A DNA stretch of 25,553 nt from a virus (IMGVR_UViG_3300025949_000085:1-25553), one strand, 5' to 3'; positions 5,853-23,086 are shown, numbered from the stretch's first letter. A program made the numbers and translations. The notes: generated by a model not told the origin, from the sequence alone.

Positions 5853-6053
5853 ATGTTCGGAAACTTCATATCATCCGCAATCAAAGTCGTGACGCTCCCG
5901 GTGGACGCCGCGAACGCTGCAATGGACATCGCCTGCGGCGGCGACGGAAGCAAACGCTCCCGCAACGCTCCCGACTGTCCAAACCCGCTATCGCTAATCG
6001 AAAGCGTTCGTGATTCCGCGGCTGATGCTGCCAAAGACATTGACGATGAGTAA
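5853..6053 (+). CDS. Small Ala-rich protein upstream of the terminase
   Basis: A 66-aa protein with an amphipathic or weakly hydrophobic N-terminus (MFGNFISSAIKVVTLPVDAA), a Cys/Ser/Asp-rich centre, and an acidic helical end (RDSAADAAKDIDDE). From memory, short proteins with this kind of start and acidic tail recur near packaging genes in podovirus-like contigs, but no function is known to me. Its leader is A-rich with no Shine-Dalgarno. It overlaps the large-terminase start by 8 bp. Confidence 0.6.
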   Translation: MFGNFISSAIKVVTLPVDAANAAMDIACGGDGSKRSRNAPDCPNPLSLIESVRDSAADAAKDIDDE

Positions 6054-7563
6054 CGCCGCCGAAATCGAGCGCGTCGCCAAAAAACTGGCTCACGATTTGG
6101 GCAGAAACTACGACGAAGTCTTGGCTGAAGTCCAAAAAGGTTTCGAGTCTGCCTCACATTCCGGCTTTGCAGAAAAGCAGCTTGGATTTTCTCTCTACCC
6201 AAAGCAACGCGAAGCGTTGGACGCCCTCAACGTCCCCGGCTCACTAGTGTCGTTTTGCTCGTGCAACGGCGGCGGCAAGACGAGTCGCGTGATCCTCGCG
6301 GCCTGCCTTGCTCATTTGGTTCTGCGCAAAGGCAAGGTCATCGCAACGTCCGGCTCTTGGGCGCAGTTGAAAGACCAGTTGATGCCGATGCTTAAGAGTT
6401 TTGAATATCGCTTCCGAAATCTGCGCGTCCTTGAGGATCGAGTTGAGACTGGTGATCCAAACTCATTCCTGCACGCTGTCTCAACGAACGACGCCGGCAA
6501 GTTTGAGGGTCATCACGGGACGGCTGAGCATCCGCTCATGCTGATTTACGACGAATCGAAAACTGTGAAGGACGCTTTCTTTCAGGCCGGTGACCGCTGC
6601 CGGATTCCGCGCGAGCATTGCCGGATTCTATACACGTCGTCCACTGGCTTTGCTCAGGGCGTGTTCTACCTTTCGCAGACCGATCCGAACTTTGGATTGA
6701 CACATCCACCGATTCGCCAACGCGCTTCTGAATGCCCGCACATTTCGCAATCGGAAATTGAGGCAATACGCAAAAAGTGGGGCGCGGATCATCCTCTGGT
6801 GCGTTCGATGCTTGATTGCGAGTTCATGCCGTTCGTCCAAGGTGCGATCATCCAGCTCGGTGAGTTGGATGCGCTGCTTGCCGATCCGCCGCCATTCGAA
6901 CCCGGCGACACCAAGGTTGGATTTGATGCTGCATGGAGCGAGTCAGCCGACGGTGACGAGACGGTCGTTGCCAGGCGCCAAGGAAACCGCGTCCGCATCG
7001 AAGCCGCATTCCGCGAGCGCGGCTTGCACGCGACCGCTGGCCGGCTGGTTGGTGAGTTCATCAAGATGGGTTTGACGCCGATGGATGCTGACATCATCGA
7101 GGGCGATAACGGCGGCGAAGGCTCGCTGCTGATTGACCAGCTTCACAAGATGGGCTGGCACGTTCGCCGTGCAAACTTCGGAGAAAAGCCGCGATTCAAT
7201 GACCGATACCAGAATCTTTGCACTGAAATGTGGGTTGAGCTTTCAATGCTGATAACGCAACGAAAATTGATTCTTCCAGCCGACACCGAGCTTTACGGAC
7301 AACTTCTGAACCGTCGTATTGTCCCAAACAATCGCGGACTTCTCGCCATTGAATCCAAGCTTGCGATGAAAGACCCAAATCGCGAGGGCGGGCCGGTGCG
7401 TTGCTCTCCCGACCGAGCTGATGCAGTGGCCATTGCTTGCGCACGTCTGCCGAACCTCAAAACGTTCAACCTGCAATCGCGCAACATGGCTCAACCATAC
7501 CAGAATCACCGGCACCAAGAGGAGCAGCCGCTTGAACGCGATGCGAACGGTTATCGTTTTTAG
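6046..7563 (+). CDS. Terminase large subunit
   Basis: A 505-aa ATPase-nuclease that should translocate DNA into the procapsid. I chose the ATG at 6046 (MSNAAEIERVAKKLAHDLG), which overlaps the previous gene's stop. The ATPase domain has Walker A CNGGGKT (73-79), Walker B MLIYDE (165-170) and a coupling motif YTSST (196-200). The nuclease domain has VGFDAAW with D294, EGDN at 352-355, and a third acidic cluster in PDRADAVA near the C-terminus. Length is normal for the family. It ends immediately before the portal region. Confidence 0.95.
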   Translation: MSNAAEIERVAKKLAHDLGRNYDEVLAEVQKGFESASHSGFAEKQLGFSLYPKQREALDALNVPGSLVSFCSCNGGGKTSRVILAACLAHLVLRKGKVIATSGSWAQLKDQLMPMLKSFEYRFRNLRVLEDRVETGDPNSFLHAVSTNDAGKFEGHHGTAEHPLMLIYDESKTVKDAFFQAGDRCRIPREHCRILYTSSTGFAQGVFYLSQTDPNFGLTHPPIRQRASECPHISQSEIEAIRKKWGADHPLVRSMLDCEFMPFVQGAIIQLGELDALLADPPPFEPGDTKVGFDAAWSESADGDETVVARRQGNRVRIEAAFRERGLHATAGRLVGEFIKMGLTPMDADIIEGDNGGEGSLLIDQLHKMGWHVRRANFGEKPRFNDRYQNLCTEMWVELSMLITQRKLILPADTELYGQLLNRRIVPNNRGLLAIESKLAMKDPNREGGPVRCSPDRADAVAIACARLPNLKTFNLQSRNMAQPYQNHRHQEEQPLERDANGYRF

Positions 7564-7581
7564 TTGACTATATCGGTAAAG
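7564..7581 (+). promoter_or_regulatory. Late-unit motif copy (TTGAC ... TCGGTAAAG)
   Basis: TTGACTATATCGGTAAAG begins directly after the terminase stop and ends 18 bp before the preferred portal ATG at 7600. It matches the motif seen before four other late genes. If the portal instead starts at the TTG of 7564, the motif would be coding. Confidence 0.5.
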
Positions 7582-7599
7582 AATGTAGAAAAGCTTTGG

Positions 7600-9477
7600 A
7601 TGCCAGTTAATCCTCAATTCGACTCCGCGCAACAAATTCTCACCGAAAGACTGAGATGGGAAACGAAGATTCGGCGTTATTACGCCATGCGCCACGATGG
7701 ACTCCCGCGTCGCGACAAAACGAAGCCTTGGCAGGCCGACCTGCACAGCAAGACCATTGATCGTGCCATTCGGAAATCAAAGCCGTTCTGGATGGGGCAA
7801 CTAACGGCTGGCGATCGACTCTGCAACTTCACGGCACTCAAGCAGCAGGTTCAATCGCAGTCTGACGCGGCTGCGGATTATTACGACTTCATCACGTATC
7901 AAGAAACGGATTTGATTGATGAAATTGACTGCGCTGTTGACCACATGCTGCTAAAGGGCCGCGGCATCATCAAGTCAACCGTTGATCCGTTGGATGGCTA
8001 CCGCATTGTTGACGAGGCCATTGACCCCATGTTCCTGTTGATGCCGAAGTCGGCGAACGACTTTGACGATTCCGACGAGTGGATTCATGTCCGCCAGTTC
8101 ACGGTTGCAAGCTATCGGCTGCTTGATGCTCGCTGGGACACGTCCGAAGAAACAATTCAGAAAATTCGCGGCAACGCAGACTTTCAATCGCTGGGCATCT
8201 ACAAGATTGAAATGGAGCTTCGCGAAGGAATAACTCACTCGTCCGACTCAAACGAAATCCTGGTGTTCGAGCATTGGGTGCGAACCGCAGGCGGCCACAC
8301 GATTCACACCTACTCTCCGCACGCGCCGGAAATTCCACTTCGCAAGCCCTACGGAAATCCCTACAAGTGGCGCAAGAAGGAATCCATTTGCTTCACGTCG
8401 TTTCAGATGGAGTCCAAGGAAAAAGGCTGGTATGCGCCTCGCGGCCTTGGCGAATTGCTAGATGTCCAGGAGCAGAAGGAAACCTACATCGAGAATATGT
8501 GGGCTGACGGGATGCGGATCGCGAACACACGCATTTTCACAAGCCAGAAGGAAATTCAGAACATGGCGAATCTTCGCCTCGATGACGGCCAGTTCATCGG
8601 TGGCGGGATTGAGTCGGTAAACTTCTCGCCGCCGCCCGTGCCTTACACGGAGATGTTGAATTATTCCAAGGCCGTCAGCGAAGAGATTGGGCAGGTGCCC
8701 GACGCCGGGATCACGGCTGCGGACAGCAAGACCGGCGGTAAGCCGATCACTGCCGCTGAGTCGAATCGCATTGGCGCGCTGACGCAGGTCGGCATGGGTT
8801 ACTCGGCAGATTTGTTCCGTCGCCGCCTCGCCAAACTTCACCGTCATCGCTGGGGTTTGATTTGCCAGTTCAAAGAGCGCGATTACGTCTATTATTCAAC
8901 CGGACAGTTGAACACGCTTCCTGAGCAAGCACTGCATGACAGCTACCTGATTACGCCGGACGGATCGCCGGACGGCTGGAATCGCCAAGCCAAGCTGCAA
9001 CGCGAGGTCATGCTGATGAACACCTTTGCGCAGTTGCCAAACAGCAACGCCGATTACTGGGTCAAGCGCGCGATGTCTGCGGCTGATGGGCAAGCGGCCC
9101 TGCAAGGCTTTATTCCGACAGGATTGAAAGACCAGAACGAGTCCGAGGCGCAGGCGATGGAACTGCTTTTGCTGACAGCGATGCCTCCTTATCCAGCCAA
9201 AGTTGAGCCGCAACAGAACCAGCTTGTCCGCATCCAGACGATTCTGCAATGGCTCGAAGCCGCTCACCATCTCGGCAAGCCGATGAATCCGCAGGCGCAG
9301 CAGCTGATCTTCCAGAACCTTGGCCAGCGGATGCAGATTTTGCAGCAGCAAAACCCGGCGGCGCACAAGGCGGCGGCGCAGTTGATGCAACAGATGGAGC
9401 AGGCGTTGGCTCAAGCGCCGGATGGCGCTGGCCCACAAACACAGATTCAACCGCAACCGATGACTCAAACGGCATAA
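7600..9477 (+). CDS. Portal protein (P22-like head-tail connector)
   Basis: A 625-aa protein forming the dodecameric portal through which DNA enters and leaves. The N-terminal part (WETKIRRYYAMRHDGLPRRD, then KPWQADLHSKTIDRAIR) and the central region (LIDEIDCAVDHMLLKGRGII) look like P22-type portal proteins. The C-terminal 60 residues are Gln-rich and probably helical (barrel or crown). A TTG at 7564 would add 12 residues, but the ATG is preferred because the upstream bases fit a repeated intergenic motif. It lies directly after the large terminase, as expected. Confidence 0.85.
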   Translation: MPVNPQFDSAQQILTERLRWETKIRRYYAMRHDGLPRRDKTKPWQADLHSKTIDRAIRKSKPFWMGQLTAGDRLCNFTALKQQVQSQSDAAADYYDFITYQETDLIDEIDCAVDHMLLKGRGIIKSTVDPLDGYRIVDEAIDPMFLLMPKSANDFDDSDEWIHVRQFTVASYRLLDARWDTSEETIQKIRGNADFQSLGIYKIEMELREGITHSSDSNEILVFEHWVRTAGGHTIHTYSPHAPEIPLRKPYGNPYKWRKKESICFTSFQMESKEKGWYAPRGLGELLDVQEQKETYIENMWADGMRIANTRIFTSQKEIQNMANLRLDDGQFIGGGIESVNFSPPPVPYTEMLNYSKAVSEEIGQVPDAGITAADSKTGGKPITAAESNRIGALTQVGMGYSADLFRRRLAKLHRHRWGLICQFKERDYVYYSTGQLNTLPEQALHDSYLITPDGSPDGWNRQAKLQREVMLMNTFAQLPNSNADYWVKRAMSAADGQAALQGFIPTGLKDQNESEAQAMELLLLTAMPPYPAKVEPQQNQLVRIQTILQWLEAAHHLGKPMNPQAQQLIFQNLGQRMQILQQQNPAAHKAAAQLMQQMEQALAQAPDGAGPQTQIQPQPMTQTA

Positions 9478-9798: not shown

Positions 9799-9834
9799 AT
9801 CGCGGGCAGTTTGGATGAAGTATAACAAACTATC

Positions 9835-9867: not shown

Positions 9868-9870
9868 CCA

Positions 9871-10556: not shown

Positions 10557-10559
10557 AAA

Positions 10560-11615
10560 ATGACGACCGATACATTGCCCCAATCACCGGACTTGGCCAA
10601 GATGGAAACCGACCTGCGTGCCGCAATGGCCGCACCGGAATCCACCACCAAAGAACCGGCGAAGCCTGATCCTGCGGCTCAACAGGCGGAGCCAGCAAAG
10701 GTTGAAGAAGTCAAAAGCCCAACGGATTTACAGAACGGCACACCTGCGGCGGCTGACAAGGAAAAACAGCCCGACGCGACGAAAGAAACTCAAGCCAAGC
10801 CCGACAACCGGAGCGAATACGCCAAGAACGCGGAACGCCTGGAAAAGAACTGGAAAGCTGTCAACGAACGCAGTCGCCTGCTTCACGAGAAGGAAGCCGC
10901 GCTGTCTGCCAAGGAAAAGGAAATCCAGCTTTCTCAGCAGCGTTTCGAGGAAAAACAGGCGATTGCCCGCAACCGCGTGACACCGGAGCAGAACGAGTCG
11001 TATGCCAAGCAGAAGCTGGCCGACGCCAAAACTCTGACGGATCAAGCGGAAGCGTGGGAAGCACGTGTTGAAAAGCTCGAATCGGACGGCAACTTCACTG
11101 ATGCCGCGAAGGCAAAGGACACAGCCAAGCAATACCGCAAGCAGGCGAATGCGGCGGAAGCGATGGCCGACCTTTACACCGCCAACGCGGAGAATCAGCG
11201 GAAGAATCCCGACCAGACGGCGGAGCAGGTCAGGGCCAGAAACATGCAGCACTTGCAGCATTACACGGTTGAGGCTGCGAAGAACTGGCCGGACATCGGG
11301 GTGACAGGCAGTGAGTTTCAAAAATTGGTCAACTTGGCGGAATCTCAACTCAAGCAGAATGGGTTGGATGTCACCGAGACGCCAGTTTTGCGGTATTTCG
11401 TCGCGGAAGCGGTGGCAAATAAAACTGCCGCCGCAAGTGTGCCGGATTTGAAAAAGAAGTTGGGCGAGTATGAAGCAAGAGTTAAGGAACTTGAAGCTTT
11501 GACTGCGCCCGGTGGCGGGACTGGTTCTGTGCAGCGTTCGGATGTTGCTGAAGTTGATTTCAGCAAGATGACGCCAGCACAACAGGAAGCCCACTTGCGC
11601 AAATTGAGCCGATAA
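10560..11615 (+). CDS. Scaffolding protein
   Basis: A 351-aa, highly charged, Ala/Lys/Glu/Gln-rich protein encoded directly before the capsid gene. Residues 20-90 are Pro/Ala/Lys/Glu-rich and probably disordered. Residues 90-230 are predicted long helices or coiled coil (EKEAALSAKEKEIQLSQQRF, then AKDTAKQYRKQANAAEAMAD). A second helical pair near 300-320 (LKKKLGEYEARVKELEAL) precedes a Gly-rich break and a short C-terminal helix (TPAQQEAHLRKLSR), the usual coat-binding end of scaffolds. Composition, length and position all fit. It would act inside the procapsid and leave before packaging. Confidence 0.85.
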   Translation: MTTDTLPQSPDLAKMETDLRAAMAAPESTTKEPAKPDPAAQQAEPAKVEEVKSPTDLQNGTPAAADKEKQPDATKETQAKPDNRSEYAKNAERLEKNWKAVNERSRLLHEKEAALSAKEKEIQLSQQRFEEKQAIARNRVTPEQNESYAKQKLADAKTLTDQAEAWEARVEKLESDGNFTDAAKAKDTAKQYRKQANAAEAMADLYTANAENQRKNPDQTAEQVRARNMQHLQHYTVEAAKNWPDIGVTGSEFQKLVNLAESQLKQNGLDVTETPVLRYFVAEAVANKTAAASVPDLKKKLGEYEARVKELEALTAPGGGTGSVQRSDVAEVDFSKMTPAQQEAHLRKLSR

Positions 11616-11645: not shown

Positions 11646-12743
11646 ATGGCAATGCAAACCACATCCAACCCGGCCAGCTTGGCCGCGTTGCAGCAGATTT
11701 TTCTCGACCAAAATTATTTCAACGAACTGGAGTTCAACCTCAAATTCCACAAATACGGCATCGGTCGTTCCGTGCCGGCCAATTCCGGCCATACGTCGGT
11801 TCGTTACTTCCGTTTTCGGAAGGCGACCACGGCTTACGTTCAGCGCATGGGCGTTGATTACAACGAAGGTGTTGTTCCGACGACCATTGCCGAAGTGCCG
11901 GTCGGCTACATTGACTGCTATCTGACTCAGGCGATCCAGCGCCATCAGATTTCAGACATTGAACTGGCGATTGACCTGATCGAACCGAAGAAACGCAACG
12001 CCAAGTCGCTCGGCAAGGACATGGCATTGTATTTCGACACGGTCTGCGCCAACTCGATGTTCGCCAACCCGGCGATCTCGGCCAACTTGGTTGATTCGCG
12101 TCAAGCGACGCTCTATAACTCCAACACGGCGTTTGAGCGGTTCAACATCCCGGCCCCCACGCTCAATTCAGCCAACGACTTCGCCACTCTGTCGGCGGCC
12201 AGTGCGTCGGCGTCGAAGATGAGCCGCGCGTTTCACATCGGCTGTATGACTCAGCTTGAGGAAAACGACGTGCCGATGGTCAACAACCGTTATCCGGTCA
12301 TCACGGCTCCGCGTGTCATCAATGACATGCGCCAGGATTCAAGCTGGTTCGCGGCGGCGGTGTATAACGCGGAAGCGTTGAAGCTGTTCCCCGGCGGCGA
12401 GTTTGAACTGGACGGCGGTATCTTCGTTTCGACGACTCGCTCGTTCCGCGAGGGCGCGACGTATGGCACCCGGAGCGACACCGGCAGCATCTTCGGTGTT
12501 GCCTATCTCGGCGACGAGGCGTTCGTGGTGCCGAAGCTGTCCAGCGGCAAGGCCGGCGGCAGCGGTGATTCACCGATCATCACCGTGATTGACACCCCCG
12601 ACCATGCCAACCCGGCAAATCAGTTCGCGCAGATCACCGCCAAGACCTATTACGGCGCGGCGTTGATTTACAACCCGACCACCTCGGCGGCGTCTGACGT
12701 GCCGCATGTCGTCCTTGGCCGCGTGCAGTCCACGTTTAGCTGA
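11646..12743 (+). CDS. Major capsid protein (N4-gp56-like)
   Basis: A 365-aa protein that should form the icosahedral shell. The N-terminal region (NYFNELEFNLKFHKYGIGRS, then GHTSVRYFRFRK and YNEGVVPTTIAEVPVGYI) has the pattern of the N4-gp56 family of HK97-fold capsids: an E-loop-like segment with a set of Arg residues and a GVxPT turn. The middle (DMALYFDTVCANSMF) and C-terminal regions (YGAALIYNPTTSAASDVPHV) also fit. It follows the scaffold gene directly. The family name is from memory of motifs and position; the capsid role itself is more certain. Confidence 0.85.
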   Translation: MAMQTTSNPASLAALQQIFLDQNYFNELEFNLKFHKYGIGRSVPANSGHTSVRYFRFRKATTAYVQRMGVDYNEGVVPTTIAEVPVGYIDCYLTQAIQRHQISDIELAIDLIEPKKRNAKSLGKDMALYFDTVCANSMFANPAISANLVDSRQATLYNSNTAFERFNIPAPTLNSANDFATLSAASASASKMSRAFHIGCMTQLEENDVPMVNNRYPVITAPRVINDMRQDSSWFAAAVYNAEALKLFPGGEFELDGGIFVSTTRSFREGATYGTRSDTGSIFGVAYLGDEAFVVPKLSSGKAGGSGDSPIITVIDTPDHANPANQFAQITAKTYYGAALIYNPTTSAASDVPHVVLGRVQSTFS

Positions 12744-12799: not shown

Positions 12800-13426
12800 A
12801 TGAAATACAAAATCATCATCACCGCGCTGGCTTTGGTCAGCGTCATTGTGGCTTCCGCCGCGCCGGTCATCGGTTTCAGCCGATATGCCGTCGGCGGGAC
12901 AGCCATCAACGCGGGAACAAACTACGCAATCATCCCTCCTGATAGTGCGAATGGAGGCGAGCCGGTAATCACCTACCTGAACATGAATGCGCTGTTTGCC
13001 ACCGGATCGTCCACGTTGACGGCCTATGTTTCAACGAACCAAACCACGGCCACAGCAGCCAATGCCACCACCACGAACACCGTTGCTTCGACGAACGGCT
13101 TTGCGGCTGGCCAGTGGGTTGTCATCCAGCACTTGACAGTCGAGAACCGGCGCTTCCGAAACGAGGCGGCGATTATCTCAGCGGTGCAGGCGACCAACCA
13201 GATCGTGCTGGCAACGGCTCCGGTGACAGCGGTTGCGGCTGGGGATATTTTTGACCAGCAAGTTGCATGGTCAACGATTCCATTGGCAACATCGGCTACG
13301 GCGCGGGAAATCAGCGGCAGCGGCATCGTTTCCGGTCAAAGATCAGAGCCGTTTTTGCTGACACTGGTCGGCTCTGCGGCGGGGACGAACACCATCAATG
13401 CGGCGGATGCGTTTTTCGCTCCGTAG
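12800..13426 (+). CDS. Exported protein with signal peptide, unknown role
   Basis: A 208-aa protein. Residues 1-20 are a classic Sec signal peptide (MKYK, hydrophobic IIITALALVSVIV, then A18-S-A20 before A21). The mature part is Ala/Thr/Asn-rich and probably beta-sheet (TATAANATTTNTVASTNGFA, then QIVLATAPVTAVAAGDIF). No family is recognised. Its place immediately after the capsid gene would normally suggest a decoration or head protein, but a cleavable export signal is odd for that. It is flanked by two similar hairpins. I chose the ATG at 12800 because the signal peptide begins there. Confidence 0.7.
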   Translation: MKYKIIITALALVSVIVASAAPVIGFSRYAVGGTAINAGTNYAIIPPDSANGGEPVITYLNMNALFATGSSTLTAYVSTNQTTATAANATTTNTVASTNGFAAGQWVVIQHLTVENRRFRNEAAIISAVQATNQIVLATAPVTAVAAGDIFDQQVAWSTIPLATSATAREISGSGIVSGQRSEPFLLTLVGSAAGTNTINAADAFFAP

Positions 13427-13434
13427 CTCAATTC

Positions 13435-13462
13435 GGGGCGGTTGGTAAAATCCAGCCGCCCC
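13435..13462 (+). terminator. Second GC-rich hairpin with TAAAA loop
   Basis: GGGGCGGTTGG (13435-13445) pairs with CCAGCCGCCCC (13452-13462), eleven pairs including one G-U, around the loop TAAAAT. It lies between the exported protein and the next gene. It closely resembles the hairpin at 12753, and no proper U-run follows (accttaatttta). Confidence 0.6.
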
Positions 13463-13473
13463 ACCTTAATTTT

Positions 13474-13800
13474 ATGACAAAACCAATTCCAATGCCGATG
13501 GCCGATCCGGTAGCACCGCCGTCCACCATCACAGTGCCTTTGACATCACTTGCCCAGCCGGATGACAAAGAAGCTATGCAGGCACCCGCAAAAGGTGATT
13601 CTGTGAGCTTTCAAGGTCAGGCTACCGTCGTTGATGTCATGGGCGAAAACGCCGTCATCAGCCTTACGGCGATCAATGGCAACGACCTTGAAGGCGGCGA
13701 AGGATCGCCAGAGGAAGAATCATCCGATGTCGGCGACCTGGACGAGCAGGAGGCAAACCTTCGTCAAGCGATGGGAGGCGCGAGTGGGCCGGTTAGCTGA
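13474..13800 (+). CDS. Small acidic protein in the virion operon
   Basis: A 108-aa protein starting MTKPIPMPMADPVAPPSTIT. Its N-terminal third is Pro-rich. The centre is a small beta domain (KGDSVSFQGQATVVDVMGEN, then AVISLTAINGNDLEG). The C-terminus is strongly acidic and Gln/Glu-rich (GGEGSPEEESSDVGDLDEQE). No signal peptide is present. The family is unknown; a head-associated or assembly role is a guess from position. Its final bases contain the GGGAGG used by the next gene. Confidence 0.6.
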   Translation: MTKPIPMPMADPVAPPSTITVPLTSLAQPDDKEAMQAPAKGDSVSFQGQATVVDVMGENAVISLTAINGNDLEGGEGSPEEESSDVGDLDEQEANLRQAMGGASGPVS

Positions 13801-14041
13801 AATCCTGTCCAGCGGACGCGCGCCGGGATTTGCGGGCATTGCTCGCGACCCCGGCTGTCCGCAAGTGGCCGTCCCGCGCGCGTTGCGCGAGATGGAATCT
13901 GGAACGTCGCGGAAAACGGTTTTCGGCAGTGCGTTTTGCTCGAAACATTCAAAAGGCATGTCGGTTCACGAGATCGAGCGCGCGACGCAGACAGCACCCG
14001 GAAAGTTGAAAAAAGTTTGGTTTAAGAAACAAAATCTATGA
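13784..14041 (+). CDS. Small basic protein, GTG start
   Basis: A frame from GTG 13784, preceded by GGGAGG at 13773-13778, gives 85 residues (MGRLAEILSSGRAPGFAGIA, then HSKGMSVHEIERATQTAPGK). The stop overlaps the ATG of the next gene as ATGA, and the start lies within the end of the previous gene, both typical of real overlapping phage genes. No domain is recognised. The C-terminus is basic (KLKKVWFKKQNL). Confidence 0.5.
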   Translation: MGRLAEILSSGRAPGFAGIARDPGCPQVAVPRALREMESGTSRKTVFGSAFCSKHSKGMSVHEIERATQTAPGKLKKVWFKKQNL

Positions 14042-14415
14042 AGACATCACTCATTTTAATCCTGAGCTTGTTCGCCTTGTGCGGCCACAGTCAGACCGTG
14101 GCGACGCGCGTAACAGGCGACAGCACGGCGACCAACTCATTCGTTGCCTCCACCAAGCCGCAGAAGGTATTTTTGCTGACAGGCTATTCCGCGACGACTC
14201 AATACATCATGGTGTTTGGAACAAATTCTGTTCCGGCCAATGGGGCGAAGTGTAATCTTGGGCCGTTTCCGGTCAGTGCCGGCCAGTTCTATTCGATTGA
14301 CTTTGGTTACTACGGGGCCGATCTCGATGCGGTCACTGTGTGCAATTCTACTACGGCAAACACTTTGACCATAGGAGTCGCCGACACAACCTTCCAAGCC
14401 GTTGTAAAACGCTAA
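14038..14415 (+). CDS. Exported small beta protein
   Basis: A 125-aa protein. Residues 1-18 form a Sec signal peptide (MKTSLILILSLFALCGHS) with likely cleavage before Q19. The mature part looks like a single beta-sandwich (QKVFLLTGYSATTQYIMVFG, then FPVSAGQFYSIDFGYYGADL). From memory, this resembles small phage virion beta domains usually encoded without a signal peptide, so an exported version is unusual. It is coupled to its neighbours by ATGA upstream and TAATG downstream. Confidence 0.7.
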   Translation: MKTSLILILSLFALCGHSQTVATRVTGDSTATNSFVASTKPQKVFLLTGYSATTQYIMVFGTNSVPANGAKCNLGPFPVSAGQFYSIDFGYYGADLDAVTVCNSTTANTLTIGVADTTFQAVVKR

Positions 14416-15608
14416 TGAAAACCATTGTTGCAATTTTTGCGTTGTTTCCGCTGATCGTGTTTGGCGGAATTAACACCGGGCCTTCGACGGTAACACCCGC
14501 CCAACTCGCGGCGGCGAGGGTGGTGACGAATGGGGCAACATGGCAAGTTCTTTATCCAAGCGGAGGGGATGATGCCTTGATGGTGTCGAATGCGGCTGTC
14601 ACCTATTCAAATATCTGGCTGATGGCTGGAACATTCAATGCCTCGAACACCGTAGTCGTTCCAGCTAACACAACTATTCGAGGCAGCGGAAAAGATTCGA
14701 CATTCTGGAATCCTTGCCAGACGAATTACGTTCTGTTTGGAACTACCAATGGTGTTCGCGTCTCTTTCTTTCCGGGCACGAATATGGTTTTGACTGATTT
14801 CACTATCTTGACTGGCCCATCGAATCCGAATGGAAATCTGTCTACCCCCGTTGGAAGTTATAGTAGCACCTATACGAACTTGAAGGCCAGCCTCATTACC
14901 CGAAACATGAGGCTCGGCGCCAACTATGATGGGATTTATTGGCGTTACACCAAGGCCACAAACTCCTGGATAGATTTCAACTCTGAAATTGATTTTCGAT
15001 GGGACTTTGCTGTTATGGGCGCGACCGCAAATTCTTTTGTCACCAACTTCAATACTCGCTATTACAATTCCGGAGTTTTGTCGAACCCATCCCGTTGTGT
15101 CTGGATGCAAGGCGGTTTTGCCGACCTTCAAAACTGTTCATTTGATTACGCCAACAACCTTGGTGGAAATTATGCAGTTTATTTTGATGACACTTTCTTT
15201 GGCACATCAACATTCGCGAGACTTAAAAATTGTTATGTTGGGGATGCTACAATTTATGGTGCCGGGTTTCCTAATTCGTATGTCGTTAATTCTGGTTCGG
15301 CCTTCTCAAACAGCGTTGCAATGGACGCTTCGCTTGGCGGTAATCAAGTTGTTGTTGAGGCAGATTGGCTGCTTCCAAACACAGCTGTTCAAGATGCCGG
15401 CACTCCGACTATAGTGCTTGGGTCAACACATGACGGGCTTTATAGCTATACCAATAGTATTGGTCAAAATTTTGACCTAGGGAATGGAGCATTTTCCCAA
15501 AAAGGAATAGCTGGGATAACTCAAAATATATCCATTCAAACCAATGCCGGACATGGTTACATTTTGAAGTATTCAGGAGGAATCGTGACTAATTCGTCTA
15601 CATATTAG
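14415..15608 (+). CDS. Exported beta-helix-like protein, possible spike or lyase
   Basis: A 397-aa protein. Residues 1-18 look like a Sec signal peptide (MKTIVAIFALFPLIVFGG). The rest is rich in Asn, Thr, Gly and Ser with short alternating strands (NIWLMAGTFNASNTVVVPAN, then TTIRGSGKDSTFW), the pattern of right-handed parallel beta-helices such as pectate-lyase-like and tailspike proteins. Catalytic residues cannot be assigned. A tailspike made by the phage would not normally carry an export signal, so an envelope or extracellular location is a serious alternative. The ATG overlaps the previous stop (TAATG). Bases here are somewhat more AT-rich than in neighbouring genes. Confidence 0.65.
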   Translation: MKTIVAIFALFPLIVFGGINTGPSTVTPAQLAAARVVTNGATWQVLYPSGGDDALMVSNAAVTYSNIWLMAGTFNASNTVVVPANTTIRGSGKDSTFWNPCQTNYVLFGTTNGVRVSFFPGTNMVLTDFTILTGPSNPNGNLSTPVGSYSSTYTNLKASLITRNMRLGANYDGIYWRYTKATNSWIDFNSEIDFRWDFAVMGATANSFVTNFNTRYYNSGVLSNPSRCVWMQGGFADLQNCSFDYANNLGGNYAVYFDDTFFGTSTFARLKNCYVGDATIYGAGFPNSYVVNSGSAFSNSVAMDASLGGNQVVVEADWLLPNTAVQDAGTPTIVLGSTHDGLYSYTNSIGQNFDLGNGAFSQKGIAGITQNISIQTNAGHGYILKYSGGIVTNSSTY

Positions 15609-15610
15609 CC

Positions 15611-16108
15611 ATGACCCGTAACCTCACAACTCTCTTGCTGCTGGCCTGCCTGCTCGGTGCGGGGTGCTCCATTCTTTCCGGCGGTCGCCAGTCTCCCGGC
15701 AACTACGATGGCGGCAATAGTGACAGTTGGACTGGTCAGCCGCAGGCTCCGTGGCCGACGAATGCAAGCATCATGCCGCCGGCAGTTATCCGGGATTCCC
15801 GGATAACTGAAATCAGCACGCCCACCTACGACGAGATGACTCCGGTGAGCTATAAGCCGATGTCGGTAGTCATCACGCCGAAATTGCCGCCTTGTCCGCC
15901 GTTACATTGGGAAGCATCGAACGGCTGGGGTGGCATCGTCATCAGCGGCCCAGATTTAAGCGTGCTAGATTGGAATCACACTGGCTGTCCGCAATATCCC
16001 AACATCTGCGCGGTGCGTGCGTGGTTGACCGAGACGACGGATTACGTTTTGCCGGTTCAAACCTCCGGCCAAGAGTTCGCCAGGATCATCCCGTTTGAAA
16101 CGGAATGA
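15611..16108 (+). CDS. Predicted lipoprotein
   Basis: A 165-aa protein. Its N-terminus is a lipoprotein signal (MTRNLTTLLLLACLLGAGCS) with the likely lipidated Cys at 19; the LGAGC box is slightly atypical because the -3 residue is Gly. The mature chain is Pro/Ser/Thr-rich at first (SPGNYDGGNSDSWTGQPQAP) and then contains a Cys-bearing beta region (PPCPPLHWEASNGWGGIV). No family is recognised. In a phage, lipoproteins can act in superinfection exclusion or as outer-membrane spanins, and either is possible. A perfect 12-bp inverted repeat lies inside the gene. Confidence 0.7.
   Translation: MTRNLTTLLLLACLLGAGCSILSGGRQSPGNYDGGNSDSWTGQPQAPWPTNASIMPPAVIRDSRITEISTPTYDEMTPVSYKPMSVVITPKLPPCPPLHWEASNGWGGIVISGPDLSVLDWNHTGCPQYPNICAVRAWLTETTDYVLPVQTSGQEFARIIPFETE
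15783..15809. repeat. Perfect 12-bp inverted repeat inside the lipoprotein gene
   Basis: CAGTTATCCGGG (15783-15794), the spacer ATT, then CCCGGATAACTG (15798-15809): all 12 pairs match. It could bind a dimeric regulator or form a strong hairpin in mRNA. Coding constraint does not require this symmetry. Confidence 0.85.
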
Positions 16109-16114
16109 AAACTT

Positions 16115-16471
16115 ATGGAGTTCAATCGCGAGTATGACGCCGACACAGAATCAGCTATCGGAATCAGCCCCATCAAGGAGATTCCGAAATTTGAGCCGCG
16201 CATATCCGTGGCCGAAATGGAGCAGTTGATGGATATGGACGAAAAACTCCAGCCGATTGCGATTGCGACCCACAAGGCGCTTTCGATGGCGGAGCAGAGG
16301 GGAAGCTGGCGAGATGAAGTTATGGTCAATTTGGTTGCCCGCGTGCGCGAAATGCGCCGCGAGCAGATACGGGCCGGAAGGTCTAAAAATAGCTGGATTG
16401 GTGAGATCGTGAAGATTGCGATTAGTTCGTTGCTGGCCGCGCTTGCGCTTTGGTGGTTAAAGCTTTTATGA
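16115..16471 (+). CDS. C-terminally anchored membrane protein
   Basis: A 118-aa protein. The first 95 residues are hydrophilic and helical, with acidic (AEMEQLMDMDEKLQ) then basic (VREMRREQIRAGRSKNS) parts. The final 20 form one transmembrane helix (IVKIAISSLLAALALWWLKL). The N-in, C-terminal-anchor topology fits a phage accessory lysis or membrane-associated factor; no family is recognised. Its stop overlaps the response-regulator ATG as ATGA, which suggests the two are made together and may cooperate at the membrane. Confidence 0.65.
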   Translation: MEFNREYDADTESAIGISPIKEIPKFEPRISVAEMEQLMDMDEKLQPIAIATHKALSMAEQRGSWRDEVMVNLVARVREMRREQIRAGRSKNSWIGEIVKIAISSLLAALALWWLKLL

Positions 16472-16890
16472 AACTGACTGACATTTTTGTAAGCGAGTTG
16501 AGGAACTTCAACGCCGACGACTACAAGCGTCCGCGCCGGGTTCTCATCCTTGAGGACGATCCCGACACAGGGCGCCTGTTGAATGAGATCATATCCAGTG
16601 AAGGGTGCCGAGTGACGCTCATTGATTCCGCAGACAGGGCGGTTGAACTGGTGGAGAAAACAATCCCGTTCACGCGCATTTTTGTGGACTTGAATTTGCC
16701 GGTCGGGCCGAGCGGCGCAGTAGCCATCCGCCGAATCCGCGACCGTCTGCCGGACGCGCCGATCACCATAATTACCGGCTTTGTCACGCAGGAATTGGAG
16801 GCCGCTGCGAAGGAAAATAATTGCGACATCCTGCAAAAAGGAACCTTTCTTCCTGAAGACATCAAGGATATTGTCAGGCAATCAAAATGA
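16468..16890 (+). CDS. Stand-alone response-regulator receiver (CheY-like)
   Basis: A 140-aa protein that is essentially one receiver domain. The acidic pocket is E29, D30 and D31 (VLILEDDPD), the phospho-acceptor is D74 (IFVDLNLP), the switch Thr is T103 (IITGF) and the conserved Lys is K124 (LQKGTF). All key residues are present, so it could be phosphorylated by a host histidine kinase. There is no DNA-binding output domain. The first 22 residues form a short helical extension. It is coupled to the membrane protein upstream and to a small gene downstream, both by ATGA. A free receiver within a virion/lysis operon is uncommon. Confidence 0.9.
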   Translation: MKLTDIFVSELRNFNADDYKRPRRVLILEDDPDTGRLLNEIISSEGCRVTLIDSADRAVELVEKTIPFTRIFVDLNLPVGPSGAVAIRRIRDRLPDAPITIITGFVTQELEAAAKENNCDILQKGTFLPEDIKDIVRQSK

Positions 16891-17105
16891 CACTCAAAGA
16901 AATAACCGAATGTCCAGCCAGCCTAGAGGCTTGGGAAACCATGATCGCCTACAGCGTGAAGCGCGCCGGCCACGATGACGCCGACGCTGCCGCCCGCTCT
17001 GCCGTGCGCGGCATGTTCATGGCGCTTAACGCCCGCCAGACGGTGAGCGGAAAAGATGATGTTGCTGGTCTGATTAAGCAGCTTGGCACAATGATGGAGG
17101 ATTAA
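16887..17105 (+). CDS. Small helical hypothetical protein
   Basis: A 72-aa, mostly helical protein (MTLKEITECPASLEAWETMI, then ADAAARSAVRGMFMALNARQ). No hydrophobic membrane segment or recognised domain. The start overlaps the receiver gene stop as ATGA, and the stop is 3 bp before the holin-like gene. It could be a partner of either neighbour, but the sequence does not say. Confidence 0.6.
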   Translation: MTLKEITECPASLEAWETMIAYSVKRAGHDDADAAARSAVRGMFMALNARQTVSGKDDVAGLIKQLGTMMED

Positions 17106-17108
17106 ATT

Positions 17109-17360
17109 ATGAAACAACTCATTCAGAAAAAACTCATGTGGGGCGTCATCGTCATTGTTGTGACACAAATTCTCGGCATGTTGCCCGCGCTGGATTTCCT
17201 GCCGCCGATTTACCTGAAGCTGGTTTCATTCTCACTCGGCATTGTCCTGACCATCGCCAAGGGCGTAGAGATGTTCTTTGACCAGTCCGCGCAGCTTGAA
17301 CAAACCACCGAAACAACCGTAAAAACCACCGTTACAAATTCAGCCCCACCCACCACATGA
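17109..17360 (+). CDS. Holin-like membrane protein
   Basis: An 83-aa protein with two hydrophobic segments separated by a short turn (LMWGVIVIVVTQILGMLPAL and IYLKLVSFSLGIVLTIAKGV) and a polar, Thr-rich tail (QTTETTVKTTVTNSAPPTT). Size and topology resemble class II holins, which make holes in the inner membrane at lysis. No endolysin is recognised beside it, so the holin assignment is moderate. Its stop overlaps the next gene's ATG as ATGA. Confidence 0.6.
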   Translation: MKQLIQKKLMWGVIVIVVTQILGMLPALDFLPPIYLKLVSFSLGIVLTIAKGVEMFFDQSAQLEQTTETTVKTTVTNSAPPTT

Positions 17361-17950
17361 AAACACCACTCGCATTCATCACCGCCCTTGTCATCGTCGC
17401 CGCCAGTTTCTACGGCTGCACCGGCCACGCGCAAACCGTAGTCGTAACCAACGCCGCTGTCATGCCGTCGTTCGCCAATGGAATCCAGATGGTCTATGAT
17501 TCCGTGGCCGGTGCAACCAACTACGGCTTGGCAACCGGCTTCGCCCGCGCCACGCACGGCAACCGAAATGTCGCATTCGCCGAAGTCGCCTACAACTTTA
17601 ACACCGTCTTCGGTGCAATCGTCGGCGGCGATTACCTCTGGACATCAAAGAAGTCTGGCGTGCCGTCAGCGTCCAACATGGTCAAAGGCGGGTTGAATCT
17701 TCAAACCGACCTTTACCCGTTCAAAAACTTCGGCCTGCCGAATCTTAAAGTCACTCCTTTTGCTTTTGGCCTTGTGGCTACCGGCAATGGCGTTGTCAGC
17801 GAAATTCTTGGCGGCGGCGCGAAGACGACGATTGCCACATGGAAAGGAATCAACGTGAATCTCGGCGTAGTTTATGAAACGCGAACCGGCGCGGGCTATT
17901 GGGACGGGCGATACGTCGGCGGATTCTTGGCGATCACGAAAGGGTTTTAA
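17357..17950 (+). CDS. Phage-encoded outer-membrane beta-barrel-like protein
   Basis: A 197-aa protein. Residues 1-25 form a signal peptide (MKTPLAFITALVIVAASFYG, with GHA before Q26). The mature part of about 172 residues shows repeated amphipathic beta strands with aromatic girdle residues (RNVAFAEVAYNFNTVFGAIV, then INVNLGVVYETRTGAGYW). It ends in a terminal Phe (GGFLAITKGF), the hallmark of proteins inserted by the BAM machinery. Size fits an eight-stranded barrel. Possible roles are receptor masking, superinfection exclusion or envelope change; none is shown by the sequence. Confidence 0.6.
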   Translation: MKTPLAFITALVIVAASFYGCTGHAQTVVVTNAAVMPSFANGIQMVYDSVAGATNYGLATGFARATHGNRNVAFAEVAYNFNTVFGAIVGGDYLWTSKKSGVPSASNMVKGGLNLQTDLYPFKNFGLPNLKVTPFAFGLVATGNGVVSEILGGGAKTTIATWKGINVNLGVVYETRTGAGYWDGRYVGGFLAITKGF

Positions 17951-17953
17951 TAA

Positions 17954-18409
17954 ATGACCCCGCAAGAAACACTCGCCATTTGCGGATATGCCCTGACGCC
18001 GGGGCATTTTAGCAGCCGCACAGTCAACGTCATTACGCCTGATTTTCAGGTGTTTGACCTGATGGCAGATGTTTTCTATCTGTCGGCATCTGGAACGCTC
18101 TATAAGCTCGCCAGAGGCTCCGTGAGTGACTTGGCGAGCGTGCCGAAGCCGTTTTGGAATCTGTTGCCTCCGCAAGGCACGGCGGGAGCGGAATACGCGC
18201 TGGCGGCGTTCGGACATGACTGCGCCTATCGGAACACCCTTCGAGTGTGGAACGGTTCGGCGTGGGTTTTGGCGGCTTTGTCCAAGTCTGATTGTGACTC
18301 GCTGTTGAAGGAAATGATGCTGGCTTGCCAAGTGCCAGAAGTGACTGCCGAGACGATTTATCAGGGCGTTAACTTGGCTGGAAGTCATGCGTTCAACGAA
18401 GACCGTTGA
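17954..18409 (+). CDS. DUF1353 domain protein
   Basis: A 151-aa protein with the DUF1353 signature: GSVSDLASVPKPFWNLLPPQ near residues 55-74, then AAFGHDCAYR near 84-93, and a helix LSKSDCDSLLKEMM. The family is common in phages and often lies near lysis genes; its activity is unknown to me, but the conserved His-Asp pair suggests an enzyme. It follows the barrel gene by 3 bp. Because no ordinary endolysin is seen, a cell-wall role is conceivable but unproven. Confidence 0.8.
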   Translation: MTPQETLAICGYALTPGHFSSRTVNVITPDFQVFDLMADVFYLSASGTLYKLARGSVSDLASVPKPFWNLLPPQGTAGAEYALAAFGHDCAYRNTLRVWNGSAWVLAALSKSDCDSLLKEMMLACQVPEVTAETIYQGVNLAGSHAFNEDR

Positions 18410-18470
18410 CAATCCGGCGAGCCGCGCCGCCTTCAGCGGGAGAATTGCGCGGCCTAGAAAATTTGAAAAT

Positions 18471-19928
18471 ATGAAAAAAATCGCTCTAATCGCAATCGTT
18501 CTGGCAGCCTTAATCCGGCTGGATGCGCAGGACTTGACCCAGGGGATCACTTTCACTGACGGCCAACGACTCACCGCCGCCCAGCTTGGGCAGCTTGTCA
18601 ACCTCGCAACCATTAACACGACGTTTTATACAACAAAGGTTTCGCAGGGTGCTCCGGTTTCGGGCGATGTTTTTCTTGTCTATTCGGCATCAAGCGGGAC
18701 GTTCCACAAGCTGACCGCGCAATCACTGCTTTACGGAAATACCGGCATCATCGCCAACCAGACACCTTATTCAACGGTGTCGGATTACTCGTCGTTCCTT
18801 TTTTACGATCCGACAAACTTGTGGCTTGGGCAGATTACGAAATCGAATCTGGCGAGCGTGATTTCCAGCGGAATTGTGTTCAGCAATCTTGTTTTGTGGA
18901 CGACCAACGGCTCGAAAGTTCCGGTTTACCCCATCGCATTCAGTGCCGGCAGCACCAACAACCAGTTGAACATTCTGGTTTTTGATACGAACGGAGTCCC
19001 CAGCTACATCACTGCATCGAATTTCTTGGCGCAGATTTACGACTATCAGTTCACCAACCGATACGAAAACTATGTGTATCGCCAGATGTTTCTGCCGTGG
19101 ACGCTTTACAGCACGAACACGACTGATTTTACGAACGCATGGGGAACGAAGACGAATTTCCCGATCACGTCTCTTTACCTGACAAATGCGTTCAACCCGA
19201 CCAACACCACGCCGCAAATTTTGCCGACAGATACCATTCCATATAATTCTGGCGGGCAGCAGACGAATACGACAGTGACGGTTGGCGCGATCTACAGCTA
19301 CCTGACCAACCTTAACACCTTGCCGGCCTACTCCATTGCACGAGCCAACTTCAGCGGCAACGTCAATCAGACGCGGTTAAGCACATCGCTATTCAACACA
19401 GCGCAGGGATTGTTGAATACAACAAATTCCATTTCAACAAACTCCATTACGGCCATAAGCTTTTTAGCGAATGGCGGGACTATTCCGACCTCGCCGCAGG
19501 TGCTGTCAAACACCGTGTTTTACGCCGTCGCACAGGTGACGAATGCAAATTATTTCCGCATTTGGACGAATTACAACGAGGCGACCGGCAGAACGAACTG
19601 GGTAACGGTGTCATCCGCACCGACCGGAACGCCGTCTGTGTTGCTGCTGACCAATTACACGAGCTTCAACGCCGACGCCATCCAGACGGTGAGCGGCACA
19701 TCTGTTTTGGGCGGCGAATACGACATTTGCTTTAGAACCCCGACACCGGACGCGCTTTACTATGTGTCCGGAGCTTGCATTCACGACGGATCAGGCCAGA
19801 CCATTTCCTTGGAGATTGACAGCTCGCAGATTGTGACGACGAACAAGGTTCGCGTTTCAACTGTGAAATCTGGCGGCAGCGGAACGACCGCCAGCGGTTT
19901 GGTTCACGTTCTCATTCAACCGCAATGA
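18471..19928 (+). CDS. Exported fiber-like protein
   Basis: A 485-aa protein. I chose the ATG at 18471 because it opens a Sec signal peptide (MKKIALIAIVLAALIRLDA, cleavage before Q20). The next part (ITFTDGQRLTAAQLGQLVN) resembles the N-terminal segment of some tail-fiber proteins. The remainder is Asn/Thr/Ser-rich and beta-prone (YLTNAFNPTNTTPQILPTDT), like adhesins or fibers. The C-terminal 80 residues (GGEYDICFRTPTPDALYYVS) may form a compact beta tip domain. The signal peptide is hard to reconcile with a normal virion fiber. A 61-bp gap with no feature precedes it. It ends 4 bp before the adaptor gene. Confidence 0.65.
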   Translation: MKKIALIAIVLAALIRLDAQDLTQGITFTDGQRLTAAQLGQLVNLATINTTFYTTKVSQGAPVSGDVFLVYSASSGTFHKLTAQSLLYGNTGIIANQTPYSTVSDYSSFLFYDPTNLWLGQITKSNLASVISSGIVFSNLVLWTTNGSKVPVYPIAFSAGSTNNQLNILVFDTNGVPSYITASNFLAQIYDYQFTNRYENYVYRQMFLPWTLYSTNTTDFTNAWGTKTNFPITSLYLTNAFNPTNTTPQILPTDTIPYNSGGQQTNTTVTVGAIYSYLTNLNTLPAYSIARANFSGNVNQTRLSTSLFNTAQGLLNTTNSISTNSITAISFLANGGTIPTSPQVLSNTVFYAVAQVTNANYFRIWTNYNEATGRTNWVTVSSAPTGTPSVLLLTNYTSFNADAIQTVSGTSVLGGEYDICFRTPTPDALYYVSGACIHDGSGQTISLEIDSSQIVTTNKVRVSTVKSGGSGTTASGLVHVLIQPQ

Positions 19929-19932
19929 TGCC

Positions 19933-21228
19933 ATGACGCTTCAAGAACTGACCAACATCTGCCTAGCCAAGACGCAGCTTTCTGGAAACACCGGAGAGGA
20001 GTCTGTTTGCAAATCTTTCCTGAGCAAAAAGTATGAGCGGATTTACAACCGCTATCTTTGGAAAGACAGCCTCGCCCCTGTCTCTCTTTCGGTTGATCCA
20101 ATCACCGACCCCGATAATTTGGCTGGAATAGTTTTGCTGCCAGAGCAGATTGAGCGTGTTGTGGCCATGCGCAACAGCAGTAACCGAGCGATTCGAGTTG
20201 AACAACAGGAGAGTTTATACCAAGACAATTACGACCTGTTTTTGAATGGGGGATTCGTCACTGAAAGCGGGACTTGGCAGCGATTCACGCAACTGAGTCC
20301 GGTTTGGTTTACCTGCCGTCCGGGAACAGAGGATTGGGGGTCTGCCATCGCCACGGGAAATATAACAACGACCATTGGCGAGGTTCTGAAGCTGGTTTCA
20401 TCTCAAGCAAACGACAGTGTGCTGTATGATGCTGGATTGTTACTTGGTGGGCCATATACGGTTGTTTTGGCTGGTGGGAACACTGGTTATTATCAAGCAA
20501 TATCAACACACACAAGGGCGCAAAGTTGGATTGCTGGCGTTCCGGGGCCAACTATTTCTGACGGGACGCTGTATTCATTTCAAGGCGTCCTGAATGGACA
20601 ATCCCTGCCGGGCGCAACTATGGTCGTAACTTCTGACGCTGTGATTGATTTGGCCGGTGGTGGAAGTCCAATTCAGGTAAAAATCATCTGGCGCGACGCC
20701 ACGGAACAGCATGTTTACAATGGGACTTTGCCGGTAACATTGACGCCTCAAGACGGAAGCGGTTTCATCGAGGTCGAATCCGTGTTCAAGCAGGTTTCTG
20801 CGGGCAACATCACATTCACGATTCAAAACCCAGTTGCCAGCTATTCTGTTTCGACGTTGATCGGAACATTGTTGCCGTCGGATTTGAGAAGCCCGAAGCA
20901 CAACCGAGTCCAGCTTGTGCCTGCTCCGGCAGTGGCAACAACGATTAACGTCCTTGGCAAAAAGCCTTTTATTCCGCTGGATTTCGATAACGAAACTCCG
21001 GCGATTAAAAACGTGGACGATTGCCTGATTGCCTTCGGCTGCGCCGACTTGCTTGAGCGCGTCCGTCAATACGGCAAGGCGGCGCAAAAACTTCAGGAGG
21101 CGGAAGCGTTGCTGGCTGATTTGGCCAGAATCGAAACCCTGCAAGAAGCGACGCATCAAGTCATGCAGCCAGCGTCCGGTTTTGGAACCAACATAGACTC
21201 CCACAAGTGGGGAAATCCCGGATATTGA
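19933..21228 (+). CDS. Head-tail adaptor-like protein with large beta insertion
   Basis: A 431-aa protein. The N-terminal 90 residues (MTLQELTNICLAKTQLSGNT, then KKYERIYNRYLWKDSL) and the C-terminal 90 (NVDDCLIAFGCADLLERVRQ, then AAQKLQEAEALLADLARIET) are helical, as in podoviral adaptor/gatekeeper proteins that sit under the portal. Between them, residues about 110-330 are beta-rich (EVLKLVSSQANDSVLYDAGL), much more than in minimal adaptors. Position before the nozzle gene supports the call. The inserted domain may contact fibers, but this is inference. Confidence 0.65.
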   Translation: MTLQELTNICLAKTQLSGNTGEESVCKSFLSKKYERIYNRYLWKDSLAPVSLSVDPITDPDNLAGIVLLPEQIERVVAMRNSSNRAIRVEQQESLYQDNYDLFLNGGFVTESGTWQRFTQLSPVWFTCRPGTEDWGSAIATGNITTTIGEVLKLVSSQANDSVLYDAGLLLGGPYTVVLAGGNTGYYQAISTHTRAQSWIAGVPGPTISDGTLYSFQGVLNGQSLPGATMVVTSDAVIDLAGGGSPIQVKIIWRDATEQHVYNGTLPVTLTPQDGSGFIEVESVFKQVSAGNITFTIQNPVASYSVSTLIGTLLPSDLRSPKHNRVQLVPAPAVATTINVLGKKPFIPLDFDNETPAIKNVDDCLIAFGCADLLERVRQYGKAAQKLQEAEALLADLARIETLQEATHQVMQPASGFGTNIDSHKWGNPGY

Positions 21229-23076
21229 ATGAGCGACCTTTCAACCAACCTGATCCAAACGTCATTCGGAAACGAGGCGTTGGACGACCCGTTGATTTTT
21301 TCCTCGCAACAGTCTTTTTCCGGCGGCGAAGATTCATTTATTCGCCCGACGCTGTTGCGTCCCGACCAGTGCCAGCATCTTTTGAATGTGCTGGTGCGCG
21401 ACAATTACGAGGCTCGGACAAGGCCGGGCGCAGACGCCATTCCGTCCGCCAACGCAAAGGTTCAAGGCAACTGGATAACAACACTGACTTTCTTGTCCGG
21501 CGCACAGAATGGAATTACCTGCGGTAACAACTCTGGATTTGCAGTCGGTTCGGTGGTTTCAGGAACCGGCATACCAAACGGAACAACGGTGGCGGCCAAA
21601 GGGGTCGGAACGATTGATCTGAGCGCGGCCACAACCGCTGACAGCGCGGGCGTCTATACTTTCACGGTTACAAGCTACACGCCGGCCACGGCCATTTATT
21701 CCGCGCGCTATTTCGACACGCCGACTTACCAGCAACTACTCGTCTCCGCTGCGGCTGGCGCGACGCCGAAGTTTTTGAAATACGAAGGCTCGGCGTGGAC
21801 GGATTTGAGCGGACTTTATGCGCCGGGATCGTCTGATTCAAGGCTGGCAATGGCGCAGGGCGTGGACAAGGTTTTGATTGCCGACGGATCAGCCAACCCA
21901 TTGCAGATTTACGATGGCTCGACTTTTACCAGTGCCGGAGCGGCGGGCAACACCAATGCGCCGATTGGAGCGACCATACTTTGCTGGCACACGAGCCGAA
22001 TGTTTGCTTCTGGCATTTCAGCGCGACCCGATGAAATTGACGTATCAAACTTCCTGACATTCGCCGCCGGACAGTGGAACCTGACGACCCGTTCATTCCG
22101 TGTTGGGGCCGGCGACGGCGACCCGATTGTTTCACTGGCATCCATGCAGGGCTTCACGCTGGCCTGCCTGAAGCGCAATTCGATTTGGCTGATTAACACC
22201 GATCCGTCGAATGATGCTTCCACGATTTATAACTTTGCCGCCACGCAGCTAATTTCTTCCGGCATCGGCTGCGTTGGTCGGGATGCGTGGTGCTCTTACG
22301 AAAATGACATCCTGTTCATGGCTCAAGATGGCGTCCGTTCAGTTCAGCGGATGCAGGCTGCCGCCGGCCAGTGGCAGCTATCAACCCCATTGAGCCAGCC
22401 CATTCAGCCGATTATTGACCGAATCAATCGCGCGGCATGGGACAAGATTTGCGCCATAAAATACAATGAACTGGCCTTGTTCTTTGTCCCGCTGGACGCC
22501 AGCACAACCAATAATTACGTCTTGGTTTGGAACGGACGTTTGAATTGCTGGCTCGGCGCGTGGGATCACTGGACTGGCCTTTGCGTTGAGCAGACCCGGT
22601 TTTCCGGTGTGGTGCGTTTGGTTTTTGGCGATTCGACCGGGCTTGTGAACCAGTGGAAAGACAATCTGGCCACCAACGGAATCCAAGACGACGCGACCTA
22701 CACCGACAACGGCGTCGGATACAAAACTCAGGCATGGCTGCCAAGCTGGCAGTTCGGCGAAATCAACTGCGACAAGACAGGCCACTTCATCCGGGTCAAG
22801 TTTTCTGGCGGGAATGCGGCCATCAACTTTTCTTGGGTGTCAGACGGCGCAACCGTTCAAACATGGGTTGGCGCATTTCAACCCTCTGGCGACATCCTTG
22901 GAACCGATGTCCTGCCATTTCTGCTCGCATCAAATCAGCCGACCAATCTGCCCCAGCCAATCAGGGGACTACCCACTTTTAACGAGGCATACTTGAAAAT
23001 TGAGTCTCAAAACGGCTGGTGGTTCTTGAAAAGCGTAAGTGCCGGAGCGTTTATCAACCCATTTTCAGAAACATGA
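21229..23076 (+). CDS. Large tail nozzle / tube-like protein
   Basis: A 615-aa protein rich in beta strands and aromatic-Gly turns (LLCWHTSRMFASG-type repeats such as ATILCWHTSRMFASGISARP and GQWNLTTRSFRVGAGDGDPI). This resembles the beta-propeller-containing nozzle or hub proteins of short-tailed phages (P22 gp10-like). Residues about 78-145 form an extra Gly/Thr-rich domain (VSGTGIPNGTTVAAKGVGTI) of the kind also found in phage decoration repeats. It starts one base after the adaptor stop. The structural role is likely; the exact family name is uncertain. Confidence 0.7.
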   Translation: MSDLSTNLIQTSFGNEALDDPLIFSSQQSFSGGEDSFIRPTLLRPDQCQHLLNVLVRDNYEARTRPGADAIPSANAKVQGNWITTLTFLSGAQNGITCGNNSGFAVGSVVSGTGIPNGTTVAAKGVGTIDLSAATTADSAGVYTFTVTSYTPATAIYSARYFDTPTYQQLLVSAAAGATPKFLKYEGSAWTDLSGLYAPGSSDSRLAMAQGVDKVLIADGSANPLQIYDGSTFTSAGAAGNTNAPIGATILCWHTSRMFASGISARPDEIDVSNFLTFAAGQWNLTTRSFRVGAGDGDPIVSLASMQGFTLACLKRNSIWLINTDPSNDASTIYNFAATQLISSGIGCVGRDAWCSYENDILFMAQDGVRSVQRMQAAAGQWQLSTPLSQPIQPIIDRINRAAWDKICAIKYNELALFFVPLDASTTNNYVLVWNGRLNCWLGAWDHWTGLCVEQTRFSGVVRLVFGDSTGLVNQWKDNLATNGIQDDATYTDNGVGYKTQAWLPSWQFGEINCDKTGHFIRVKFSGGNAAINFSWVSDGATVQTWVGAFQPSGDILGTDVLPFLLASNQPTNLPQPIRGLPTFNEAYLKIESQNGWWFLKSVSAGAFINPFSET

Positions 23077-23086
23077 CGATCAAAAT

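Follow-up and report, generated by a model that had tools for sequence, protein, structure and literature searches.

Tailed-phage virions are taught as assembling wholly in the cytoplasm, and Cor and T5 Llp are among the phage-encoded proteins that are exported. Lom of phage lambda, another exported protein, is a barrel encoded between tail genes (PMC12309495), and host Sec is used for a late protein by signal-bearing endolysins such as Lys44 of fOg44, by SAR endolysins and in the export assisted by Ms6 Gp1 (PMC6116005). While Sec use for late phage proteins is thus already known, our literature search, which subscription journals mostly lay outside, found no tailed phage described as having spike, fibre or decoration-type proteins with signals, and no precedent for a tailed-phage virion that is finished with exported parts. 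Here we analyse a conserved block of virion-type genes with such signals in a 25,553-base linear viral contig, IMGVR_UViG_3300025949_000085:1-25553, referred to as the window in its full length.

The window has the gene order of a podovirus, with primase-helicase, terminase, portal, scaffold-like, capsid, adaptor-like and nozzle-like genes (Table 1); for the adaptor-like protein, searches of PDB and PHROG gave no match. At 24733-25158, it also encodes a cupin-like protein that is kept in relatives and is strongly matched by PHROGs named short tail fiber and tail fiber adhesin, and at 23039-23635, among the late genes, a possible 3'-5' exonuclease-like protein was noticed by eye. The nearest terminases are those of Akkermansia muciniphila phages, making a Verrucomicrobiota host likely; as two scans of sequenced genomes yielded no prophage, the assignment rests on this match of 30-32% identity, and the host of the phage group is probably a member of the Verrucomicrobia (Verrucomicrobiota). 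Portal alignment recovered 16 related IMG/VR loci, which together with the window represent about 14 distinct phages, one of them (G014) a circular genome with a 127-bp end repeat. Profile searches of PDB with portal, capsid, adaptor, nozzle, 12800, 14038 and 18471 returned nothing usable.

Table 1. Features of the window discussed in the text; genes of the block are named by their first position.
Position	Strand	Assignment	Basis
6010..7563	+	terminase large subunit	phrog_2 2.9e-13; 30-32% identity to Akkermansia phages
7564..9477	+	portal	tblastn to annotated portals; 41-66% to relatives
10560..11615	+	scaffold-like protein	position, composition, family HMM
11646..12743	+	major capsid protein	phrog_1357 2.3e-11
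12800..13426	+	exported jelly-roll protein with inserted phage virion beta-barrel	predicted model; signal in homologues
13474..13800	+	small acidic conserved protein, no signal	family HMM
13784..14041	+	small cytosolic protein, start inferred	directly upstream of or fused to signal-bearing gene in 12 phages
14038..14415	+	jelly-roll protein, signal variably present	model and family alignment
14415..15608	+	spike-slot protein: signal, short motif, variable domain	relatives' domains; beta-helix-like by eye
15611..16108	+	putative lipoprotein	L-G-A-G-C; detector
16115..16471	+	small protein, C-terminal TM	hydropathy
16468..16890	+	stand-alone receiver domain	PF00072 2e-12
16887..17105	+	small protein without signal	detector
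17109..17360	+	2-TM holin-like protein	TM count; G015 counterpart
17357..17950	+	exported, probable outer-membrane beta-barrel	C-terminal F, alternating pattern (by eye)
17954..18409	+	DUF1353 protein	PF07087 1.7e-12
18471..19928	+	exported fibre-like protein: conserved N-terminal domain, swappable C-terminal part	family alignment
19933..21228	+	adaptor-like tail protein	position; conserved after 18471 in relatives
21229..23076	+	nozzle/head-closure-like protein	phrog_578 5.4e-7

An earlier note on this DNA had described the genes between capsid and adaptor as an inserted cassette with six Sec or lipoprotein signals (12800, 14038, 14415, 15611, 17357 and 18471). In every relative that spans the region, however, members of the block come after the capsid gene, and contigs that extend far enough show adaptor and nozzle behind them; this is the family's standard late region, and we therefore dropped the insertion of a foreign cassette. 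The remainder of the description held. Intergenic distances stay between -4 and +6 nt through most of its length, making it one packed late block, in keeping with a single programme, and the receiver, the DUF1353 protein and two membrane proteins, 16115 and 17109, do lie between the signal genes. The receiver was found only in the window, with no counterpart in any related phage. As for the signals, our rule-based detector, which recovers 8 of 12 well-known E. coli signals and is falsely positive for 1.4% of shuffled proteins, called all six named products and none of the 17 genes outside the cassette; its sole additional call inside the block, a doubtful one, was 17109. All six starts show a charged n-region and a hydrophobic core, followed by either an A-x-A-type site or a lipobox; the first two, together with small residues at -3 and -1 and the absence of a further transmembrane segment, are the features by which the rule recognizes type I Sec signals. 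By reading of the sequences, Gln directly follows the likely cleavage point in three products, as had been claimed, namely in 14038 (HS|Q), 17357 (HA|Q) and 18471 (DA|Q), the site chosen by rule for 14038 lying three residues downstream of HS|Q.

The same picture emerged from the family. In the window and its 11 IMG/VR relatives taken together, signals are carried by 44 of the 101 genes of the capsid-adaptor block, compared to 10 of 297 genes elsewhere (including 63 from two Akkermansia phages, none with a signal); this contrast is large, and the Fisher P of 5e-21 is only nominal, since the genes counted are related. Among 49 curated N-termini, 36 have Lys at position 2, after the Met, and 14 have Gln at +1 against a background of 3.9% (P 3e-9; the site picker is blind to +1). 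Such an enrichment of Gln would not be expected of an anchor helix, and we therefore infer that most of the family's signals are cleaved. We had at first expected sequence identity to be lower in the signals than in the mature parts; this was not seen and plays no part in the argument. Chance hydrophobic N-termini are ruled out by the block enrichment, the Gln +1 and Lys counts and the 17 negative outside genes, and wrong start codons, for the main families, by the alignment of starts across relatives. By sequence criteria, these findings support the hydrophobic N-termini as real signals that are conserved by position.

The signal of 12800 is strong and present in 10 of 10 homologues. Its model is a beta protein (pLDDT 79) in which residues 78-155 resemble the phage tail-tube domain 9n71 (Z 12.3, rmsd 1.6, 74 aa, 27% identity), followed by matches at Z 8 to 10.4 to phage tail-tip, baseplate, spike and capsid chains, including the P22 coat; as modelled, this domain has a fold common to phage virion proteins. 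Outside these residues, the protein is a jelly roll with weak matches. Also 14038 is modelled as a jelly roll (pLDDT 91), and its nearest matches are tailed-phage proteins, including one from Ralstonia phage RSK1. Naming its jelly-roll family from PDB was given up, the matches being tied with plant-virus coats and others; likewise, the HFTV1-type turret or cement jelly roll scored Z 6.5 against 14038 and 7.3 against 12800, tied with unrelated jelly rolls. These folds, together with the domain swapping in the 14415 spike slot, agree with the virion-like character that the products had been given, and the fold matches of 12800 and 14038 say nothing on location.

Signals at the same positions in relatives, for which the earlier note had proposed a search, were found for 12800 and the 14415 slot in every gene read and in 8 of 10 cases for 18471, but not throughout the 14038 family, of which seven members have a signal, while eight rows from seven contigs begin directly at the mature domain. 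Homologues without hydrophobic N-termini, named beforehand as one half of what would speak against the proposal, thus occur for 14038, one of the six families. The 14038 signal underwent at least two changes on the portal tree, and the sisters G010 and G015 differ from each other; this indicates that export is not essential to the role of 14038; the natural pair with and without signal offers a ready-made comparison. Other tailed phages, too, encode relatives without a signal, two of which each form the end of a long repetitive protein. In all of the 12 phages checked, a protein like 13784 adjoins a signal-bearing gene, either 14038 (five), 18471 (five) or, by fusion, 18471 (two; G006 and G015, with the cytosolic domain in frame ahead of 18471). 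It usually overlaps the downstream signal gene by 4 nt, in loci including L006, L015, L040, L041, L045 and L047, and, by analogy with the part of Ms6 Gp1 for its endolysin, could assist export or assembly in a coupled manner.

Every gene of the 14415 slot that we read has a signal, followed by a short motif, often by a Gly-rich linker, and then by unrelated domains; the stretch from signal to linker is the part common to close relatives. The exchanged domains include, in G002, an SGNH hydrolase whose Pfam match lies below the cut-off and which also matches the tail fiber family phrog_11419, an alpha-galactosidase in G006 and a match to the tail protein family phrog_18920 in G008. In 18471, about 100-200 N-terminal residues are kept, and the remainder is replaced in G006, G008, G012 and G016; the two relatives outside the clear calls for its signal, G006 and G012, have atypical N-termini that the rule does not recognize. 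Judged by these alignments, the 14415 slot and 18471 follow the pattern of podovirus spikes and fibres, a conserved N-terminus with exchangeable C-terminal domains. The window's own 14415 and 18471 had no usable match in PHROG, Pfam, PDB or phage records, and single-protein searches with 12800, 18471 and 14415 found no close relatives in named phage records; by eye, the window's 14415 looks like a beta-helix.

Additional signal-bearing genes accompany these two in several relatives. Those in G006 and G008 carry ARNAAEARARLGI, a motif known from fibres, and that in G014 (locus L054, oriented 8409-11313), with collagen-like GPQGPPG and LamG-like sequence, is inserted within the adaptor region, where it splits the adaptor gene in two. 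In G015 (L056, oriented 21950-22022), the adaptor frame continues upstream through the signal-like MLRTIILAALLSLSSAKA, which we read either as an alternative start or as what is left of a gene since lost. Spike- or fibre-like genes with a signal also adjoin a 14038-like gene in L068 (5085-6893) and L070 (4300-5718), more distant phages with capsids of the unrelated families phrog_544 and phrog_1328, respectively; given these other capsid families, the trait may extend to more than one lineage.

Other genes of the block point to the envelope. The L-G-A-G-C of 15611 fits the PROSITE lipobox pattern. 17357 is a probable outer-membrane beta-barrel, its family ending in F in four phages (GLRAGF in the G015 homologue), and showed no match to the Lom/Ail Pfam family at E<=1. 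The only Pfam hit of 17109 was DUF7940 (0.019, below the cut-off), while its G015 counterpart matches the holin family PF23987 and, in L056 (oriented 19400-20248), is fused in frame to an outer-membrane-barrel-like protein. 17357 and 15611 resemble plain envelope proteins, which makes at least part of the block an envelope programme; with 17109 and the G015 fusion, it probably includes lysis genes as well.

How might these two sides of the block belong together? We tentatively favour a model in which proteins for adsorption and decoration are exported ahead of lysis and are added to the virions when the cell lyses. The block would encode these proteins of a short-tailed phage family as Sec precursors, alongside a lysis- and envelope-like set. 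The precursors would cross the inner membrane before lysis and be cleaved, and the mature proteins would be kept in the periplasm or on the cell surface while heads and tails form in the cytoplasm; after opening of the membrane by the holin, the spikes and fibres, now mature, would bind to tail and capsid. Before release, spike enzymes could in addition trim the glycans of the envelope, and receptors could be masked by bound fibres. In favour of this late joining, we count the signal enrichment, the Lys at position 2 and Gln at +1, the folds of 12800 and 14038, the signal-less half of the 14038 family with its relatives at the ends of long repetitive proteins, the spike-slot domains, the swapping in 18471 and G014; against it stand the signal changes in 14038, the envelope-like 17357 and 15611, the lack of a precedent in the literature we found and folds that give no location. 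Our preference derives from two of these points. By inspection of its circular genome, G014 has no fibre or spike candidate without a signal, so that any fibres that the family possesses are probably to be sought among its exported proteins; and the role of 14038, being also feasible from the cytoplasm, fits a virion part added at lysis better than a function in the envelope only. The full claim, that in a tailed-phage family the virion is completed only when the inner membrane opens at lysis, by the joining of spikes, fibres and decoration proteins exported through Sec, is somewhat more doubtful, and we regard it as less likely than not.

Nearly as likely as late joining is that the exported proteins never enter virions, and that virion-derived domains have been reused on the host envelope for glycan trimming, as receptor masks and as an outer-membrane barrel, which together would give superinfection exclusion or easier release. 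That each 14415-slot gene read has a signal, that a barrel-like gene and a lipoprotein share the block, and that Lom sets a precedent (PMC12309495) all accord with this; but it would leave G014 without an obvious fibre or spike, the signal-less half of the 14038 family could not act in the envelope, and a kept N-terminus with a swapped C-terminus is what virion-attached fibres show. Far less probable is a division in which only the spike slot, 15611 and 17357 are truly exported, while 12800, 14038 and 18471 are virion proteins whose weak or partly bypassed signals leave a cytosolic pool for assembly: the gain and loss of the 14038 signal and the fusion of 18471 behind a cytosolic domain in G006 and G015 would suit it, the strong signal in all homologues of 12800 would not. 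The poorest candidate, uncleaved short anchors in place of export signals, holding the proteins in the virion or in a membrane during DNA entry, for which the shared N-terminus of the 14415 slot resembles the short anchor peptides of branched spikes, is improbable in view of the Gln at +1 and A-x-A sites, the varied core sequence, the signals on lipoprotein and barrel-like neighbours, and the existence of 14038 in both forms.

A conserved virion-type block with signals would mean either that part of a virion is delivered via the envelope, as in the late joining that we favour, or that spike-type proteins are displayed on the infected cell. To our knowledge, jelly-roll turret and decoration proteins assemble in the cytoplasm; the likeness of 12800 and 14038 to the HFTV1 turret, to decoration jelly rolls and to accessory beta-barrel domains of phages is one of predicted folds, and for the turret jelly roll it is weak. 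Like Lom, 17357 is a phage-encoded, signal-bearing envelope protein among late tail genes, but it lacks a match to the Lom family, and here fibre-type and jelly-roll proteins have signals too. With podovirus tailspikes and branched depolymerase fibres, the block proteins share a short conserved N-terminus and exchangeable SGNH hydrolase or glycosidase domains, yet they have a Sec signal ahead of the anchor. Finally, Lys44, the SAR endolysins and the Ms6 system are likewise cases of tailed phages using host Sec for a late protein; those proteins, however, are lysis enzymes, whereas the proteins of this block are of the adsorption and decoration type.
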